A DNA stretch of 26,153 bases, from IMG/VR virus record IMGVR_UViG_3300044712_002647, positions 1-26,153 of that record; one strand, given 5' to 3'. This stretch comes from a virus. The position numbers and the translations under genes are program-made. The number at the start of each line of letters is the position of its first letter. Position 1 is the first letter of the stretch. Positions 13,377 to 21,574 of the stretch are shown here, piece by piece. Under the pieces are notes generated by a model. That model ran no database searches and was not told the origin of the DNA. It saw only the letters and a list, made by a program, of their open reading frames with translations.

Positions 13377-13790
13377 TCAGGGTAATTTCATTATTCCAAT
13401 CCCAGCCATGATGCATTTCTGTACCTTTGCCAATTGGTCTGCAGCGAGGACTCTGTTATCATAAATCCTCTTGCCTAGTCGATCCTTCCCATTGAAGGGG
13501 AGACAAAATCTATCGAAAGACAAGGCATAGATCATATCTCCTTTGACCCAATGGAACGGGGAATCATAAGGAGCCGGCAGAGGTGGATCCAGAACCAGTT
13601 TATAGTGCATGGGCAAAATCACCGAAGGTTCAGTGGTGCTCAGCGGAACCACGGTACATATATTGGGCCGTGAAGCGATTGGCTTAGAGACCACAATGAC
13701 AGGACGCCTCTTTGTCATTTCAGGTTCATGAAAACCTGAGAAATCACAAATCAGGATAGCTCCGATTGCAGGATGAAAATGGATTGTCAT
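13377..13790 (-). CDS. PemK/MazF-family toxin (type II toxin-antitoxin)
   Basis: 137 aa. The family are ribosome-independent or -dependent mRNA interferases with an SH3-like barrel. Signature features: HPAIGAILICDFSGF (residues ~6-20), then TKRRPVIVVS (the conserved R-R-P-V-x-V-x-S strand), NICTVVPLSTTEP, the WVKGDMIYALSFDRF strand-turn, and a final GKRIYDNRVLAADQLAKVQ helix region. The start overlaps the antitoxin stop by 4 bp (ATGA, 13787-13790), the usual coupling for such pairs. It is longer than E. coli MazF (~111 aa). In a prophage it could support maintenance or abort infection by other phages. Confidence 0.8.
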   Translation of the reverse strand: MTIHFHPAIGAILICDFSGFHEPEMTKRRPVIVVSKPIASRPNICTVVPLSTTEPSVILPMHYKLVLDPPLPAPYDSPFHWVKGDMIYALSFDRFCLPFNGKDRLGKRIYDNRVLAADQLAKVQKCIMAGIGIMKLP

Positions 13791-13987
13791 TTACCGTTGA
13801 ATTCTTTCTTCTCTCGAGCAATGGCCTCGGCCACCTTCTCTTTTTCCTTGAAAACAGCTTCATAGAGGCTGTACCCGGAGCCTGAGCCGGCAATTCCAAG
13901 ATCCTCAGCCATTTTTACGACTGCAGCTTTCAATTCGTCGTAAGACACATCTTTAAGTGATCGATATGGAGGTTTGTTTGAACTCAT
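13787..13987 (-). CDS. Antitoxin partner of the PemK/MazF-like toxin
   Basis: 66 aa from the ATG at 13987, which has AAGAGGAAG upstream on the minus strand; an upstream in-frame ATG at 14017 lies inside the DUF3892 gene and lacks a site. The sequence SLKDVSYDELKAAVVKMAEDLGI is helical, and the C-terminal half (AVFKEKEKVAEAIAREKKEF) is a charged helix that could wrap the toxin. No classical AbrB or RHH DNA-binding motif is obvious. The antitoxin role is inferred from the 4-bp overlap and toxin-proximal order. Confidence 0.6.
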   Translation of the reverse strand: MSSNKPPYRSLKDVSYDELKAAVVKMAEDLGIAGSGSGYSLYEAVFKEKEKVAEAIAREKKEFNGK

Positions 13988-14001
13988 TCTTCCTCTTTGA
14001 A

Positions 14002-14295
14002 TTATATTCTCGGGCATTCAGGTAGACTCAAAAGATTGTTGGGCACGTTACCGTCAGCAACCGTTTTCAGGTATTTGTGGCCGTTTTCAGTCTTGGCAAT
14101 AATGACATCTGTCGAAACCCCATTGACCATAACAAAGAATGCCCATTTACCCGCTTCTATCCCACTAATTGCCTCGTCCAATGTAATTTTCCACTTTGAT
14201 CCACTTGGATTCAACCCGCCGATATGGGTAATCCTTTCCCAATACGCATCGCGATCGATTTTGTTGATACATCCGACCCTAACTCTATCAGCCAT
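14002..14295 (-). CDS. DUF3892-family protein
   Basis: 97 aa. The core ERITHIGGLNPSGSKWKI, the EEAI-like DEAISGIEAGKW, the strand FFVMVNGVSTDVIIAKTENGHKYLKTVADG, and the ending PNNLLSLPEC are the conserved features of DUF3892, whose function is unknown. AGGAGG precedes the ATG. It lies 14 bp upstream of the antitoxin on the same strand, so the three genes are likely one operon. The parS-like palindrome lies 20-40 bp upstream of its start. Confidence 0.85.
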   Translation of the reverse strand: MADRVRVGCINKIDRDAYWERITHIGGLNPSGSKWKITLDEAISGIEAGKWAFFVMVNGVSTDVIIAKTENGHKYLKTVADGNVPNNLLSLPECPRI

Positions 14296-14371: not shown

Positions 14372-14554
14372 TTGAAAAAGAAGCTCACACCAGTATTTGA
14401 AGTTCGCACTGTTCCCTGCCCACCTGAGCACACTGCTTCCTGGCTCAATGCATTAACCCTTTGGTGGCGAAGGATCGCCAGAGATTCATCTACCCGCTCT
14501 CACACCCAACCCCATCGTGATCCCCGTCGAAGTTGTGAGGATCATTACCAATGA
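14372..14554 (+). CDS. Small protein with PCPPE motif, TTG start
   Basis: 60 aa. AAGGAG (14361-14366) lies five bases before a TTG, a well-formed start, and an upstream in-frame ATG (14342) lacks a site. The N-terminus has KKLTPVFEVRTVPCPPEHTA followed by SWLNALTLWWRRI, a pattern I associate from memory with short proteins encoded beside site-specific recombinases, but this is unverified and no recombinase is seen here. Its last 65 bp overlap the 3' end of the thermonuclease gene on the other strand; after about residue 40 the sequence is low in information, so the real conserved part may be only the first ~40 residues. Confidence 0.4.
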   Translation: MKKKLTPVFEVRTVPCPPEHTASWLNALTLWWRRIARDSSTRSHTQPHRDPRRSCEDHYQ

Positions 14555-15608
14555 CTCGGAACCTTCGGTAACTGATATCGCCGCAATCCAGATCGGGGGG
14601 ATACGGAGGAATGCAAACATCGGGGTACGATGGGTCACAATTACCGCCGACTGAGTTGCTCGACGGTGCTGAGGTGGCTGCCGGTGCTACGTAGGGCAAA
14701 TAGGTTGCCGTTGGTGCCCACATTCCCAGCAGGCTGGCTTTTGCCATGGCCTGAGCTGAAGCAAAAGTGGAATCGCAGGCCGTATCTGGTGGCCAGGAGC
14801 CTGCGGTGGCGTAGCCATTGGTGACCATCGCGTAGTTGACGAACACATCCCCAACGAACACATAACGCAGCAGCCGGTCGTACTGATCGACCTCGGAGGT
14901 ATCTTTGACGAGGGTGACGGTCTTTCCCGCCACGAGGTACTCGTTGAAGTTGGTGGCTGCGAGGGCGCCCGGTTCGCCAGTTTCAGGGGTGTCAACACCG
15001 ATATAGCGCACGGAGTAATCCACGCCATCGATGATGACGTGGATGGTATCACCATCAACCACATAGGACACCTTGCCGACCTCTCGCTCGGAGGCAGGGT
15101 CCACACAAGAAGCGGCAGAGATCGCCGGCAAGGTAGCCGTTGGGGTCGATGTGATCGTTGCTGTCGAAGTTATCGTCGAGGTGGATGTTATTGTTGAAGT
15201 CATCATCATCGTTGATGTTGATGAAGCGGTCGCAGTGGAAGAAGAAGTGGAAGTGACCACCACTACCGGCGTCATTGTTTCTACAGAAACGGCAGCAAAC
15301 GCGGCGTGGGAAGAATTGCCGGAGGAAGCGATAATCGCAATAAGTATGATGGGACCAAGGATGAGGGAAAGCAAGGCGGTCCAGGAGAGGGCAGGGGGTA
15401 GGCTGCGGAGGTGAAGTTTCTGGAATAGGGTGGAGATCCACGATTGCAGGCGGGGTTTGAAAACTGTCCAGGCGTGCTGTAGGCGAGCTTTGAAAGAGAT
15501 CCAGATGCGCTGAGGCCAAGGCGGCAGTTCTGGCGGGAGCTGTGGGGGTAAAGCCGGCGGCAGGAGTGGCGGCGGATTCACCGGCAATGGCGGTATTGAA
15601 TTGTTCAT
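14490..15608 (-). CDS. Membrane-anchored thermonuclease (SNase-like) with excalibur domain
   Basis: 372 aa from the ATG at 15608, which has GGAGGGG directly upstream. Residues ~5-35 are proline-rich and cytoplasmic, ~75-96 form one membrane helix (LSLILGPIILIAIIASS), ~110-165 are a Ser/Thr linker, ~175-295 a staphylococcal-nuclease domain, and ~335-372 an excalibur domain. The catalytic set is visible: VRYIGVDTPET holds the Arg and Asp-Thr-x-Glu, and YDRLLRYVF the second Arg. The excalibur end has DLDCGDISYR and DHDGVGCES. The enzyme cuts DNA or RNA with calcium outside the cell, tethered by the helix. In a prophage it could degrade incoming DNA (exclusion) or scavenge nucleotides. TAG stop at 14490. 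Confidence 0.85.
   Translation of the reverse strand: MNNSIPPLPVNPPPLLPPALPPQLPPELPPWPQRIWISFKARLQHAWTVFKPRLQSWISTLFQKLHLRSLPPALSWTALLSLILGPIILIAIIASSGNSSHAAFAAVSVETMTPVVVVTSTSSSTATASSTSTMMMTSTITSTSTITSTATITSTPTATLPAISAASCVDPASEREVGKVSYVVDGDTIHVIIDGVDYSVRYIGVDTPETGEPGALAATNFNEYLVAGKTVTLVKDTSEVDQYDRLLRYVFVGDVFVNYAMVTNGYATAGSWPPDTACDSTFASAQAMAKASLLGMWAPTATYLPYVAPAATSAPSSNSVGGNCDPSYPDVCIPPYPPDLDCGDISYRRFRVIGNDPHNFDGDHDGVGCESG
15277..15290. repeat. Second in-gene copy of GTTTCTACAGAAAC
   Basis: Exact 14-bp core inside the thermonuclease gene, encoding part of VSVET just outside the membrane helix. Flanks are not palindromic here, unlike at 14316 and 22340. Confidence 0.6.
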
Positions 15609-15624
15609 TTCCCCTCCAAACAAA

Positions 15625-17265
15625 CTAAATATCCAGTATTCCTTGTTCTGGACTTTGCTTTTTCACCTTCGCAGCTTGCTTGAACGCACCCGCTCCTGAC
15701 GGAGGCATTTTCACCTCTGCGCCAGCAAGGATCGCTTCAATCGTGAGGATTTGAATGCGGGGGTAATCCTTGTTCCAGAGCTCGGAGTGATAGTGTCCGG
15801 CAGTAGCGGCTTCTGTGTTCATTTCACGGGTGGATGGCTCGAGAGTGATAAAAACGCCGATCGCAGCCTGCTCGCGTTCGATAGTGCCTTTGAGATCCCT
15901 GATCATCCCGCTGTTAACGTTGCCACCTTTGACCTGGATAATGACACGCTTGACGCCGCCTTTGGGATCATCCAAGAAGTTGATCACGCCATCAATACCG
16001 CGATCTGCACCTTTCTTGCCGACTTTGCTACCTTCTGTCCCTCCCTGGGGACGCGCTTCGATGAGGGATAACGCCCACCATTGGAACTGGTATTTATCAT
16101 CCCGGGCAAGCTGTTGTGCGCCGGCCAGATCTTCAGGTTCGCCGATGACCTGGTAATCCTTCTTTGGCTCCAAACCAAACATATCTTTAAGACGTGCTTT
16201 GTGCATGGCGATGGCCAGGTGGGTGATATCGATGCCGATCCACTGCCGGCCAAGATTTTGAGCTGCACTGATGCAAGTACCACAACCGCTGAAGGGGTCG
16301 AGAACGACATCACCAGGATTTGAGGAGGCGCTGATAATGCGTTCGAGCAGCGCTAGTGGTTTTTGAGTTGGATATCCAAGCCTTTCTGCGGCTTGAGCCT
16401 GGATCGGTGGAATATCGTCCCAAAGATTCGACACCACAGGTTCTTTTACTTCATCAAGGAAAATTTTTCGAGAAGGGCGGCCGTTTGCGCTCCAATAGAG
16501 TTTCCCAGCTTTATCCAGTTCTTCCAGCTTCCCTTTCTCCATCATCCATCCATAAGTCGGTGTATATCCCTTGTACTCATAGATGAGATTTTGTCGAATA
16601 CCGATGCCTTGGTTTCTTTCAACTAAATGAAGCCGGTAACGGCGACCATTTTGATCAAAATGACGGTAAAAATCATCTACATATTTCGTATCATGGCTGG
16701 TTCTTGGTGGAATGAAAAGATACTGAGCGCTTTTTGAATAAAACAAGAGAGTATCGGTTATATCCCCCAACTTTCTCGTAGTTGTATTGTGAGCGGTAGT
16801 CCGTTTCCAAACGATTTCATTCAAAAAGTTCTGTGGTCCAAAAATCGTATCCAAGATCATCTTCAGATAATGACTGGCAGTTGGATCACAGTGAAGATAG
16901 AGAGAGCCGGTCGGCTTGAGCACCCGGTGGAGCTCGACCAGTCGAGCCGCCATCATCACCAGGTAGGCCATCATCTGGTTGGCACCGATGAATTGATGCA
17001 AGGCACCGATCATATTCCCCACGCCGCCTGGGGCGTTGCGTACCAGCTGCTCGTACGTCTCCTGGGCAGATGGTCCCCAGTGCCAGGCGTCATCGAAGGC
17101 GGCGATCTGGGCGTCTGACTGGCCACTTTCATCTTTGAAAAGCACGTTATAGGAGCGGTTTGAATTGAATGGCGGGTCCAGGTAGATCAAATCAACCGAT
17201 TCATCTTTGATATGTTCTCGAAGGACCTTTAGGTTATCGCCGTAATATAGAGTATTCATCGCCAT
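15625..17265 (-). CDS. DNA methyltransferase fused to a restriction endonuclease-like domain
   Basis: About 546 aa. The N-terminal ~370 residues form a beta-class N6_N4_Mtase: LDPPFNSN near residue 30 (motif IV), and VVLDPFSGCGT near residue 320 (motif I), with GRQWIGIDI after it. Residues ~400-520 carry an Mrr/PD-(D/E)xK-like nuclease: RGIDGVINF, then VKRVIIQVKGGNV, where the Asp and the Gln-x-Lys are the likely catalytic residues, then GTIEREQAAIGVFITL. One protein could therefore both modify and cut DNA. The start is uncertain (GTG 17277, ATG 17265, ATG 17259; none has a strong site; family members usually begin MNxLYYGDN). It is 16 bp upstream of the nuclease gene, as one operon. Confidence 0.8.
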   Translation of the reverse strand: MAMNTLYYGDNLKVLREHIKDESVDLIYLDPPFNSNRSYNVLFKDESGQSDAQIAAFDDAWHWGPSAQETYEQLVRNAPGGVGNMIGALHQFIGANQMMAYLVMMAARLVELHRVLKPTGSLYLHCDPTASHYLKMILDTIFGPQNFLNEIVWKRTTAHNTTTRKLGDITDTLLFYSKSAQYLFIPPRTSHDTKYVDDFYRHFDQNGRRYRLHLVERNQGIGIRQNLIYEYKGYTPTYGWMMEKGKLEELDKAGKLYWSANGRPSRKIFLDEVKEPVVSNLWDDIPPIQAQAAERLGYPTQKPLALLERIISASSNPGDVVLDPFSGCGTCISAAQNLGRQWIGIDITHLAIAMHKARLKDMFGLEPKKDYQVIGEPEDLAGAQQLARDDKYQFQWWALSLIEARPQGGTEGSKVGKKGADRGIDGVINFLDDPKGGVKRVIIQVKGGNVNSGMIRDLKGTIEREQAAIGVFITLEPSTREMNTEAATAGHYHSELWNKDYPRIQILTIEAILAGAEVKMPPSGAGAFKQAAKVKKQSPEQGILDI

Positions 17266-17283
17266 CCAATTATTCACTACTTA

Positions 17284-18060: not shown

Positions 18061-18089
18061 TTGACAATCATCAACTGTCGTGCTATATT
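18061..18089 (+). promoter_or_regulatory. Early operon promoter
   Basis: TTGACA (18061-18066), 17-bp spacer, TATATT (18084-18089). It reads rightward into the replication genes. The predicted start lies near 18096, inside the inverted repeat that overlaps the -10 box. Confidence 0.75.
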
Positions 18090-18453: not shown

Positions 18454-18675
18454 ATGGGAGTACCGAGAACATGGCCAACGATCGCGGCTGATGACCGCGA
18501 CACGGCGGCGGAGTACGTGAATAATGGAGCGGGCCAACTGGCCAGAGTGCGCAACAGAGTACCGAACGAATATCGCGGCGACATTCTGGAGATCGAATTG
18601 AATCTGGCCAACGCGTTGAGGCTGTTAGAGAAACACGGCGCCAAGACCAGGATCCCCGACCCGCTCCGCCCTTGA
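18454..18675 (+). CDS. Small hypothetical early protein
   Basis: 73 aa, with AAAGGAG close upstream of the ATG. Basic and helical (VNNGAGQLARVRNRVPNE, then ILEIELNLANALRLLEKHG). No family is recognised. It is the last protein gene before the ~780-bp structured noncoding stretch, so that stretch is probably transcribed downstream of it from the 18061 promoter. Confidence 0.6.
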   Translation: MGVPRTWPTIAADDRDTAAEYVNNGAGQLARVRNRVPNEYRGDILEIELNLANALRLLEKHGAKTRIPDPLRP

Positions 18676-18813
18676 AAATGGCAGTTCACCGGCCTCGCCG
18701 GTTCGTTTAGAGGTAGGAAGTGCAATCCAGCATCGGTGCGCCGGTGGACTGTAGGAAGTCCCTGCTCCCTCGTTTCACGAGGTCGCGGGATGGCCGCAAA
18801 GAACGCGGCACAG

Positions 18814-18886
18814 TGCGGGATGGAGGAGAGGTCACCTCGCTGGGCTCATAACCCTGAGATCGCTGGTTCGAATCCAGCTCCCGCTA
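18814..18886 (+). tRNA. tRNA-Met (CAT), initiator-like
   Basis: A full 73-nt cloverleaf with standard spacing: acceptor TGCGGGA/TCCCGCT, U8, D-stem GAGG/CCTC with an 8-nt GG-containing loop, anticodon arm with loop CTCATAA (anticodon CAT at 18847-18849), 5-nt variable loop, and T-arm GCTGG-TTCGAAT-CCAGC. Three hallmarks of bacterial initiator tRNA are present: an unpaired 1-72 position (T-T), three G-C pairs at the bottom of the anticodon stem (GGG/CCC), and A11-U24 in the D-stem. One more mismatch lies in the anticodon stem (T-T). CCA is not encoded (CTG follows the discriminator A). Confidence 0.75.
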
Positions 18887-18925
18887 CTGGCAAGACAGAT
18901 CTTTGAAAAATAAACAAGCAATGGA

Positions 18926-19039
18926 CTGGCGGAGGCGTTGGGCAACACCCGTCCTCCAATCGATCGAAGGACGTGAAGGCAGAGCCGGAGGATCGATCAC
19001 GGTGAGAACTTCAACCAGGTTCGAGTCCTGGCCGCCAGT
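18926..19039 (+). ncRNA. tRNA-like element 2: perfect acceptor and T-arm, enlarged body
   Basis: CTGGCGG (18926-18932) pairs fully with CCGCCAG (19032-19038), and the T-arm is CCAGG-TTCGAGT-CCTGG (19015-19031), with a perfect B-box GGTTCGAGTCC. The 82 bases between acceptor and T-arm are twice the normal length and do not give D and anticodon arms; they form a GGAGG/CCTCC stem and GTCCT/AGGAC stem with a 12-nt loop containing ATCGAT, a sequence repeated in a second loop near 18991. It is either a tRNA disrupted by an insertion or a tRNA mimic. Confidence 0.4.
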
Positions 19040-19198
19040 ATTCCCGGAGTGGGTCGCCCCCCTCGACCTGCTCCGGGAGGAGGTTTGAAAAGGCAATTTC
19101 CGGACGTCTGGTGCGTCCGGTTTGCATCTGCAACACCTGGTGCTAATCACCAGTGAGCAAGTAACCTGCAGTCGGTAACCTTAAGTGACCCAAATGGA

Positions 19199-19303
19199 CT
19201 GGCAGGAGGCCGGTGGAAATCCGGCCTACGCTTGGGCGAGATGAGCTGACATGCCCCCCTCATGCCAGCGGGTCAGCACCGTTCGAACCGGTGACGCCCA
19301 CCA
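19199..19303 (+). ncRNA. tRNA-like element 3: T-arm with 3' acceptor strand and CCA
   Basis: The T-arm CACCG-TTCGAAC-CGGTG (19277-19293) is followed by ACGCCCACCA, which could be read as an acceptor strand ending in ACCA. TGGGCGA (19233-19239) would pair with ACGCCCA at six of seven positions, but only 37 bases lie between it and the T-arm, too few for D and anticodon arms. The 5' part instead forms a stem, CTGGCA plus GAGG with CCTC plus TGCCAG (19199-19268), around GCCGG/CCGGC. Confidence 0.35.
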
Positions 19304-19408
19304 TACCTTTGATGATGGCCAGCAGTTTCAGGAGGTGTCTCGCGGCTACAGTTCAGATACGCCGCAGCAATTGAGGTAGCTGAACCCTGACGGCCATACC
19401 CCTGCAGC

Positions 19409-19445
19409 GAGGGGCGGATGTTCTTCTCTTCTTGATCCGCCCCTC
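19409..19445 (+). promoter_or_regulatory. 11-bp hairpin directly before a ribosome-binding site
   Basis: GAGGGGCGGAT (19409-19419) pairs perfectly with ATCCGCCCCTC (19435-19445) around a 15-nt pyrimidine-rich loop. Two bases later comes AAGGAG and the GTG start at 19459. There is no T-run, so it is more likely an mRNA processing, stabilising or translation-control structure than a terminator. Confidence 0.5.
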
Positions 19446-19458
19446 AAAGGAGCAAAGA

Positions 19459-20005: not shown

Positions 20006-20419
20006 ATGACCACTTACCAAACTGCACTTAATACTGGATTCAGCATGGCGGCCGCCCTCGAAGGGGTGACCGGTGAACTCGAGATGGCTATCCTGCGTGT
20101 AGTCATGTTCCACGTAGGGGCAGAAAATCGCATCAGCCGCACTGAATTGGTGGCCGAGGTTCACGCCCAGGGACTGAAACAGGATGAACGCACGATCCGG
20201 CTGGCGGTGAGCGAGATGCGCCGTAAATACGGCATCCCGATCGCAGGCACGGGCGGCACGAAGGGTGGGTACTGGCTGCTCAAAAACGAGGATGAAGCGG
20301 CTGCCTACCTGAAGGTTGAGCTGCACGACCGAGGCACTTCGCTCCTCGAACAGGAGGCGGCGGTGCGGAAATCGTTCAATCGCTGGTACCCAGGCGAACA
20401 ATTGAGGCTTGGCCAATAA
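20006..20419 (+). CDS. Winged-helix-like DNA-binding protein
   Basis: 137 aa. Residues ~40-95 (ISRTELVAEVHAQGLKQDERTIRLAVSEMRRKYGIPIAG, then GGYWLL) have the helix-helix-wing pattern of winged-helix domains in which RTIR...RKYGIPI is the recognition helix and the GTGGTKGGYW turn is the wing. The C-terminal helix region (residues 96-137) is charged. AAGGAAGG precedes the ATG. It sits at the head of the replication genes, so a role in replication or transcription control is plausible but unproven. Confidence 0.6.
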   Translation: MTTYQTALNTGFSMAAALEGVTGELEMAILRVVMFHVGAENRISRTELVAEVHAQGLKQDERTIRLAVSEMRRKYGIPIAGTGGTKGGYWLLKNEDEAAAYLKVELHDRGTSLLEQEAAVRKSFNRWYPGEQLRLGQ

Positions 20420-20435
20420 ACACGAAACAGGAGAG

Positions 20436-20681
20436 ATGGCAAAGATGATCATCCGCAGCATTCGAACACACGCTCGCACGGCGGGCGCCACGGTGAACGT
20501 CACCGGGATGTACCGCAAGCGCGGTCTGCAGCTCCCGGCAGAAGGTGAGACGCTGATCGTGGAGAATATCGCCAACGGCAAACGCTTCGCCGGCACTGTA
20601 ACCAAAGTGGATACGGTCACACGCTGTTACGACTTCCGGGTGGATCTGAGCCAGGAGATCACGGCAGAGGCGGCAGCGTGA
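20436..20681 (+). CDS. Small hypothetical protein in replication operon
   Basis: 81 aa from the ATG at 20436, just after CAGGAG; a TTG at 20409 in the same frame overlaps the previous gene. The sequence is short strands with basic residues (MIIRSIRTHARTAGATVNVTG, then ETLIVENIANGKRFAGTVTKVDTV), perhaps a small beta-barrel. It overlaps the next gene by 4 bp (GTGA). No family is recognised. Confidence 0.6.
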   Translation: MAKMIIRSIRTHARTAGATVNVTGMYRKRGLQLPAEGETLIVENIANGKRFAGTVTKVDTVTRCYDFRVDLSQEITAEAAA

Positions 20682-21574
20682 AGGGGCGCTCCTTCGTGCG
20701 GGAGATCCGCACCAGCGAGACGTTCGGCAAGCTGAGCTACCGCCAGCGGGACCTGTTCCACGGCCTGGTGGAAGTGGCTGACGACCAGGGCAGACTGGTG
20801 GGCAACCCGGCCTCTGTGCGGGCTGAGGTGTGGCGCTACGACGAGACGATCATCGTCCCCGAAACCCAGGCTGAGCTCGAAGTGCTGGCCAGCGGCAAGG
20901 ATCCGTTCATCAAGATCTACCAGGTGGAGGATAAAACCTACATCCAGATCATCAACTGGTGGAAATATCAGCGGATGGACTGGGCGGCGCCGAGCGCGTT
21001 CCCCGCGCCGGCAGGCTGGACGGACCGCGTGAAGATCAACGTCAAGGGCGGAAAAACCCTGATGGTCAATTGGGACAAGCCGGGCGGGTTCGATCAACCC
21101 GAAAGAGCTACGGCGGTAACTACCAAGGAAGGTGTCAAGGTAGGTACAGGGGTGGCTACCCCGCCAGCTACGGCGATAAAGAAGTTAAGCGAAGTTAAGG
21201 ATAAACCAAATAAAAAGAATATTAACCAATCCAATCCAACCGGGATACCCACCGGGCTTGACCCTGACCCTGTTCTGACCCCTGAAAAGGCAAAACGAGC
21301 GCTGGATCTTGCCCTCGGCGACCTTCGCCGCACGATGGGCCGAGCGGATTTTGATACCTGGGTGAAGCCGGCCGAGTTCTCCGGGATCTCCGGCAACCAG
21401 GTAGTGATCGCGGCCGGGAACGCATACGGCCGAGACTGGCTGGAGGGCCGGGTGAAGTCGACACTGACGAATTCGATGCGGGCTTACCTGGAGGATCCAG
21501 ACCTGGAGCTGCAGTTCGTTGTGGCTCCGATGGTCGACACGAGCCGTCAGCCGCGAACGGCGGCGGTTGGGTAA
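20678..21574 (+). CDS. Phage replication protein with DnaA domain I-like C-terminus
   Basis: 298 aa, GTG start overlapping the previous stop. Residues ~1-115 (TSETFGKLSYRQRDLFHGLVEVADDQGRLVGNPASVRAEVW) resemble phage replisome-organiser N-terminal winged-helix domains. Residues ~120-205 are a disordered Lys/Pro/Thr-rich linker. Residues ~205-283 (AKRALDLALGDLRRTMGRADFDTWVKPAEF, then VVIAAGNAYGRDWLEGR) match the DnaA N-terminal domain I: F-x-x-W-x-x-P and the N-x-x-x-x-x-W-L motif. No AAA+ or DnaA DNA-binding domain follows. It may load the host helicase through this DnaA-like domain at the phage origin. Confidence 0.7.
   Translation: MKGRSFVREIRTSETFGKLSYRQRDLFHGLVEVADDQGRLVGNPASVRAEVWRYDETIIVPETQAELEVLASGKDPFIKIYQVEDKTYIQIINWWKYQRMDWAAPSAFPAPAGWTDRVKINVKGGKTLMVNWDKPGGFDQPERATAVTTKEGVKVGTGVATPPATAIKKLSEVKDKPNKKNINQSNPTGIPTGLDPDPVLTPEKAKRALDLALGDLRRTMGRADFDTWVKPAEFSGISGNQVVIAAGNAYGRDWLEGRVKSTLTNSMRAYLEDPDLELQFVVAPMVDTSRQPRTAAVG

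Follow-up and report, generated by a model that had tools for sequence, protein, structure and literature searches.

Genome setting of the RNA region

The stretch of DNA analysed here, termed the window (26,153 nt), is a linear 26.2-kb IMG/VR record (IMGVR_UViG_3300044712_002647) from an uncultivated tailed phage. It encodes a major head protein (414-1568) followed by tape measure and tail genes, together with replication and partition genes that include ParB, SSB and a replication initiator (20678-21574) with a DnaA N-terminal domain located within its C-terminal part. Other recognizable genes are a DNA methylase fused to an Mrr-type restriction endonuclease domain (15625-17277, minus strand), followed by an SNase-like nuclease gene (14490-15623), and a PemK/MazF-like toxin gene (13377-13790, minus strand) adjoining a 76-aa ORF (13787-14017) which could be its antitoxin. 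The host is probably a member of the Anaerolineaceae, since relatives of the head protein (MCP) were found in genomes of Bellilinea, Pelolinea and an uncultured Anaerolineaceae bacterium; further relatives were found in one Anaerolineales MAG and one Armatimonadetes MAG. Searches with a flanking 145-aa protein or with ParB returned no close relatives, and cultured phages matched the region at tRNA-Met only. The head-protein scan yielded 80 related loci, and 45 of their records were searched with the DNA of the region; all phage sequences compared are metagenomic fragments.

A noncoding region of 783 nt (18676-19458) follows an early promoter and two small ORFs and precedes the replication genes. 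The final upstream ORF stops at 18675, and GTG 19459 is the most likely start of the next gene, leaving no likely protein gene in between; the boundaries, the lack of a protein gene and the early-operon position proposed in the first-pass annotation are upheld. The features, all on the plus strand, are as follows.

18061-18089, plus strand: early promoter TTGACA-N17-TATATT, predicted from sequence, ahead of the operon that contains the RNA region
18454-18675, plus strand: small ORF of 73 aa bordering the RNA region
18682-18751, plus strand: module U, 12-bp closing stem CAGTTCACCGGC/GCCGGTGGACTG and tRNA D-loop-like TTTAGAGGTAGGAAGTGCAA
18752-18811, plus strand: module A, AGGAAGTCCC...CTCG-TTTCA-CGAG...GCCGC-AAAGAAC-GCGGC
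18814-18886, plus strand: initiator tRNA-Met(CAT), no encoded CCA
18925-19039, plus strand: tRNA-like Y, 8-bp acceptor ACTGGCGG/CCGCCAGT, canonical T-arm at 19015-19031
19041-19079, plus strand: free C6 hairpin (H type) directly after Y, CCCGGAG...GGTCG-CCCCCCT-CGACC...CTCCGGG
19100-19120, plus strand: perfect 7-bp hairpin CCGGACG-TCTGGTG-CGTCCGG
19137-19153, plus strand: hairpin CTGGTG-CTAAT-CACCAG
19207-19227, plus strand: hairpin AGGCCGG-TGGAAAT-CCGGCCT, directly before X
19233-19303, plus strand: tRNA-like X, acceptor TGGGCG/CGCCCA, T-arm CACCG-TTCGAAC-CGGTG, 3' end ACCA
19245-19269, plus strand: C6 hairpin within X, GCTGACATG-CCCCCCT-CATGCCAGC
19409-19445, plus strand: perfect 11-bp stem GAGGGGCGGAT/ATCCGCCCCTC, ahead of GTG 19459
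20006-20419, plus strand: protein gene p20006 (phrog_2113)

Folding and modular organization

The density of hairpins noted at first pass is well beyond chance: 17 perfect hairpins (stem of at least 5 bp, loop of 3-9 nt) were counted against 6.3 in dinucleotide shuffles (p=0.002), eight of them with 7-nt loops against 0.9 expected, a number equalled by none of 500 shuffles and reached by only ~2% of same-size windows of the record. The minimum free energy of the whole region was moderately low (z -3.1), being strongest at 18676-18800 (z -4.3) and 19040-19084 (z -3.9) and weak in the rest, including the true tRNA (z -1.0), and sliding-window folding energy over the region was uninformative. Folding energy alone could therefore not prove structure, and the weight rests on comparison between phages.

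ARAGORN and Rfam agreed on a single tRNA in the region, the tRNA-Met(CAT) already proposed (58.8 bits), which is assigned as an initiator because of three G-C anticodon-stem pairs and a U1.U72 mismatch. Rfam returned nothing but tRNA at gathering and relaxed thresholds (E≤5), and ARAGORN found no tmRNA with a tag peptide, lowered thresholds giving spurious calls only. An initiator tRNA is also present at a comparable locus in three more relatives (L126, L149 and L159). A homologue of p20006 lies 3' of the RNA locus in L149 (62%), L159 (62%), L086, L087 and L088, which argues that this is the same locus across relatives, and L086 has a homologue of the 73-aa ORF ahead of its RNA locus (tblastn 41% identity, E 2e-6).

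Because the order and combination of the pieces differ among these phages, the region is best described, from sequence comparison, as an early-operon array of separate structured RNA modules comprising U, A, tRNA-Met, Y, a free C6 hairpin, smaller hairpins and X; the single ~780-nt RNA envisaged at first is at odds with this reshuffling. Module U is kept directly before the initiator tRNA in L149 and L159 (a comparison of two distinct sequences), and phages L086 and L087 have homologues of module A at other sites, with paired changes (blastn 76% over 66 nt, E 1.9e-6; three sequences compared). Y is without a normal anticodon arm, and its 8-bp acceptor covaries between four sequences, those of the window, L086, L088 and L149 (ACTGGCGG/CCGCCAGT, TCTGGCGG/CCGCCAGA, TTTGGCGG/CCGCCAAA and GATGGTGG/CCACCATC), enclosing inserts of widely differing length. 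With introns allowed, ARAGORN read Y as a tRNA-Trp with a 23-nt intron, a candidate that was rejected as the lengths and sequences of the insert differ in L086 and L088.

The sequence TGGACTG does recur at 18745, 18922 and 19195 as had been observed; it does not define three homologous repeat units. A pseudoknot had also been suggested between the TCTGGTG loop of the 19100-19120 hairpin and CACCAG (19148-19153), but the latter is already paired within its own hairpin at 19137-19153, and neither the 19100-19120 hairpin nor the pseudoknot partner was seen in the relatives inspected. The hairpin at 19207-19227 has a counterpart in the same place in L087 (TCCGG-GAAAGA-CCGGA), while the 11-bp stem at 19409-19445 was not traced in relatives; this stem has a 15-nt pyrimidine-rich loop and contains a GAGGGG complementary to the C6U loop.

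tRNA-like scaffolds and exchange of arms

The tRNA mimics proposed at first pass are supported: Y and X both have an acceptor stem and a T-arm with a TTCRA loop, although neither matched the Rfam tRNA model even at E≤5. X retains an acceptor and a T-arm around a C6 hairpin placed at the anticodon-arm position, with a few nucleotides in place of the D-arm; it has no anticodon loop bearing U33, its loop being CCCCCCU, and no promoter of its own. A structural scan of ~1.2 Mb of sequence found four X-type loci only, and further ones came from scanning viral contigs with a pattern. Across an alignment of seven sequences, pairing was retained in 100% of cells for the acceptor, 94% for the T-arm and 89% for the arm (94% for the three helices), and 10 of 19 pairs had changed on both sides, with a covariation score unmatched in 500 shuffles. 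Covariation in relatives, which the first-pass annotation had put forward as its check, is supported beyond expectation, and the comparisons establish the identity of the modules and their folds.

L129 and L149 have the C6 hairpin on a second tRNA-like scaffold, X' (CGGCCGATGGC...GCAGATCGTCTTTC), which bears another, unrelated arm in L161 and in L087 (read in the overlapping copy L083). On X, the C6 hairpin is found in the window, L086, L087, L126, L159 and L161, and a second copy of X in L126 has a different arm, so that in every phage listed with X or X' one scaffold carries the hairpin. Both scaffolds have near-CCA 3' ends (ACCA, ACCU). The presence of the hairpin on both scaffolds, each of which also occurs with other arms, indicates that the C6 hairpin is a portable payload; its exchange between scaffolds is itself observed, and is the strongest sign of function.

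Two other elements were encountered in these phages. tRNA-like units that do score as tRNA, but whose 12-nt anticodon loop is enclosed by GGATCC stems, occur in L149 (3949-4029, 46.1 bits) and L159 (11549-11627, 43.5 bits), and a recurrent motif GCTAACGTCGGCA followed by a GACARYCGG-type hairpin occurs in L086 (10980, minus strand), L126 (2738) and L149 (3874) and is absent from the window.

The C6 hairpin in phages

The C6 hairpin (loop CCCCCCU) is present twice in the window, the free copy scoring 19.8 bits (E 0.004) and the copy within X 28.1 bits (E 2.5e-5) with a covariance model, R1, whose E-values are rough and which was trained on the C6U loop. The copy within X has a conserved A.C mismatch and its loop at 19254-19260. 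A free copy follows a tRNA-like or tRNA unit in the window, L126, L129, L149, L159 and L161, the loop being three bases longer in L149 and L159. R1 matched 17 times in 831 kb of sequence from relatives and related loci, always inside the RNA locus.

In other phages the hairpin forms a stand-alone unit: TTGACA-N16/17-TATAAT is followed after ~7 nt by a 10-12-bp stem, whose halves enclose the core GAC-N-UG-CCCCCC-UCA-N-GCC; a T-rich tract comes next, and a second promoter often follows it. In HK97-type phages these units lie close to the head of the structural operon, whose genes we take, from our own reading of the proteins, to be those for terminase, portal, protease and head protein. Over 27 phage sequences the hairpin was 96.5% paired, with a covariation score of 0.873 against 0.200 in shuffles, and the ten outer pairs, which lie outside the search pattern, also covary strongly. 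The invariance of the C6 loop is partly built into the search pattern and the model; in a control with the same stem core and a free 7-nt loop there were at least 79 sites, and among the matches listed only two sites, both CCCCCCT, had the outer stem (at least 8/9) and a promoter, which argues that the loop belongs to the element.

Phage and host copies alike gave only tRNA at gathering against Rfam 15 and otherwise nothing near a gathering score, and no full C6 hairpin was found in cultured phages or plasmids. The MCP of one phage with a stand-alone hairpin had no match in 147 Anaerolineaceae genomes. Two other identities were considered and rejected. The arms vary yet stay complementary, and the conserved centre is not palindromic, unlike a double-stranded DNA operator; for many copies an ordinary terminator of the upstream gene is excluded by the promoter that lies between them and by upstream genes that can be divergent.

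The C6 hairpin in Anaerolineaceae chromosomes

When 400 Chloroflexota genomes were searched by pattern, four of the loci that were read proved to be true hairpins. At a permissive threshold (E≤0.01), R1 matched 52 of 61 Anaerolineaceae genomes, with one to four copies each; at E≤5e-4, it matched 31/61 Anaerolineaceae genomes compared with 4/60 genomes drawn across the class. A C-loop hairpin lay at the match in 21 of the 25 loci fetched for checking, some weak matches being false. The host hairpin measures 37-39 nt, with an uninterrupted 15-bp stem and mostly GGGUG-CCCCCCU-CACCC at its apex; 99.1% of the stem cells are paired, and 11 of the 15 pairs show double changes. It is preceded by a sigma-70-type promoter-like site, scoring at least 9/12 at a fixed spacing in 62% of copies against 1% of random positions, and followed by a short U-rich tail. 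Promoter linkage, like presence in host chromosomes, is shown by these comparisons.

Host copies are flanked by chromosomal genes, and the gene that comes next frequently has the opposite orientation, from which most of them are likely to be small RNA genes and not leaders; in three genomes the hairpin lies so near a lipoprotein gene that it could be the 5' leader of that gene. At the permissive threshold, most of the sampled Anaerolineaceae appear to encode the C6 hairpin as a tiny, undescribed RNA gene. The neighbouring genes include those presumably encoding RecN, an ABC transporter and a PTS-type regulator, as named from our own reading of the proteins. Among host loci L312-L336 (e.g. L322 and L330), one hairpin site recurs just after the recN-like gene.

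Some further observations concern tRNA fragments. Among other relatives, a tRNA-Val(CAC) is intact in L048 (~19950, minus strand), and its 3' half lies in L089 (~552, minus strand) at the opposite end of the same record (G032), which looks like prophage attL/attR; lone T-arms were for this reason excluded as tRNA-like units. On one contig of an uncultured Anaerolineaceae (G046, C34), three initiator-tRNA 3' halves (38279, 46583 and 55116) spaced ~8.3-8.5 kb apart suggest tandem elements integrated at tRNA-fMet.

Possible function and alternative explanations

The structure and conservation of the array and of the C6 hairpin are well supported, and we infer from them a target and a function, with expression, processing, action in trans and G-rich targets of the C6 RNAs as its components. 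Tentatively, and at rather less than even confidence, the phage array with its C6 payload is proposed to be a trans-acting mimic of a new host hairpin sRNA carried on a natural tRNA scaffold. The tRNA-like RNAs lack usable anticodons, and the active payload would be the CCCCCCU-loop hairpin, of which the phage would have mounted one copy of the host type as the anticodon arm of the D-armless scaffold X and left a second copy free. X would be trimmed by tRNA end-processing enzymes and be stable, the tRNA frame probably stabilizing and processing the payload as engineered tRNA scaffolds do. In trans, the loop would most likely pair with ribosome-binding regions or other G-rich sites (complement UGAGGGGGGCA), and the phage would thereby imitate or saturate the pathway of the host hairpin RNA. 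This reading is favoured because the loop is conserved and because C-rich loops that pair with GGGG near start codons offer the closest known precedent. The wider proposition, that Anaerolineaceae possess minimal single-hairpin C6U-loop sRNAs copied by several phage lineages, in some through tRNA-like grafts, so that a host pathway is taken over or blocked, is one to which we would give just short of an even chance. Against a role in trans are the position of the hairpin at the structural-operon head in many phages and its possible use as the 5' leader of a lipoprotein gene in three host genomes, both of which also fit a role in cis.

A protein partner for the C6 hairpin is nearly as likely as a trans-acting mimic. 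The stem and CCCCCCU loop could be recognized by a host RNA-binding protein or RNA polymerase, a reading that we rate a serious contender despite its lower probability, with host copies acting as regulatory ligands and phage copies titrating or recruiting the protein, either as a decoy in trans or as an antiterminator in cis. The near-invariant loop, the closing UG/CA pairs and the A.C mismatch fit protein recognition at least as well, the outer stem being free in sequence and not in pairing, and the 5'-terminal position at +1 near structural-operon heads recalls put-type antitermination in HK022. However, many phage copies have a T-rich tract at their end and a second promoter after it, which fits a short separate RNA better than a leader, and placement within a tRNA-like unit that would be cut out sits poorly with cis antitermination.

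It is unlikely that the tRNA-like units serve simply as processing punctuation, with RNase P and RNase Z maturing the early transcript and the hairpins only stabilizing the pieces. Their location between genes of one operon, the intact acceptor and T-arms and the near-CCA 3' ends of X and X' are all compatible with such a role, which nevertheless leaves unexplained the invariant C6U loop, the exchange between scaffolds, the stand-alone copies and those in host chromosomes. Far less probable is that the array is what remains of a captured host tRNA cluster in decay, as one intact tRNA beside tRNA-like units without D or anticodon arms might suggest: acceptor and T-arms are kept paired by compensatory changes, a covariation that contradicts decay, and the same odd architecture recurs in several phages, where one specific hairpin replaces the arms. 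In view of the phage tRNA neighbourhood, the first-pass annotation had raised a large ornate RNA resembling GOLLD or ROOL, known or new. The presence of such an RNA, which would form a homo-oligomer, can be given hardly any credence despite a comparable length and a location beside tRNA-Met (GOLLD env-38 lies downstream of a Met-tRNA; PMC12286853), given that neither Rfam model matches at gathering or E≤5 and that the modules in relatives are separate and reordered, with protein genes between them.

Relation to known RNAs and significance

The proposed trans-acting mimic has partial parallels among known RNAs. In Xanthomonas, sX13 acts without Hfq to repress mRNAs that have GGGG motifs close to the start codon (PMC3771888); sX13 and the Staphylococcus RNAs share with the C6 hairpin stable stems with C-rich apical loops, whereas the C6 RNA is one hairpin of 37-39 nt with a single invariant loop, largely limited to Anaerolineaceae and phages and displayed on tRNA-like scaffolds. 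In the engineered tRNA scaffold, the anticodon stem-loop gives way to an RNA of interest, which the tRNA frame protects (PMC3753655); X, in contrast, is natural, lacks a D-arm and is found in phages. Viral tRNA-like structures and the tRNA domain of tmRNA resemble X in closing an acceptor and T-arm around a non-tRNA domain, but here the units stand in tandem in a DNA phage operon with a host-type hairpin as payload. GOLLD and ROOL, like this region, are phage noncoding RNAs near a tRNA gene, and differ from it in that it has no covariance-model match and consists of separate, shuffled modules instead of one RNA. The HK022 put RNA is a hairpin near a phage operon promoter, as is the C6 hairpin in other phages, and is set apart by description, since the C6 element has a single C6U loop and occurs also in a tRNA-like context and in host chromosomes.

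Together, these data point to a new RNA family common to a little-studied bacterial family and its phages. As the host hairpin is short, multi-copy and loop-invariant, its partner can be sought directly. The arrangement in X is a natural counterpart of the swap made by engineers, in which the anticodon arm of a tRNA is replaced by another functional hairpin. The proposed mimicry would show phages imitating a host small RNA and not a host protein. It also suggests a reason for the presence, in some phages, of tRNA-shaped genes that are unable to decode.
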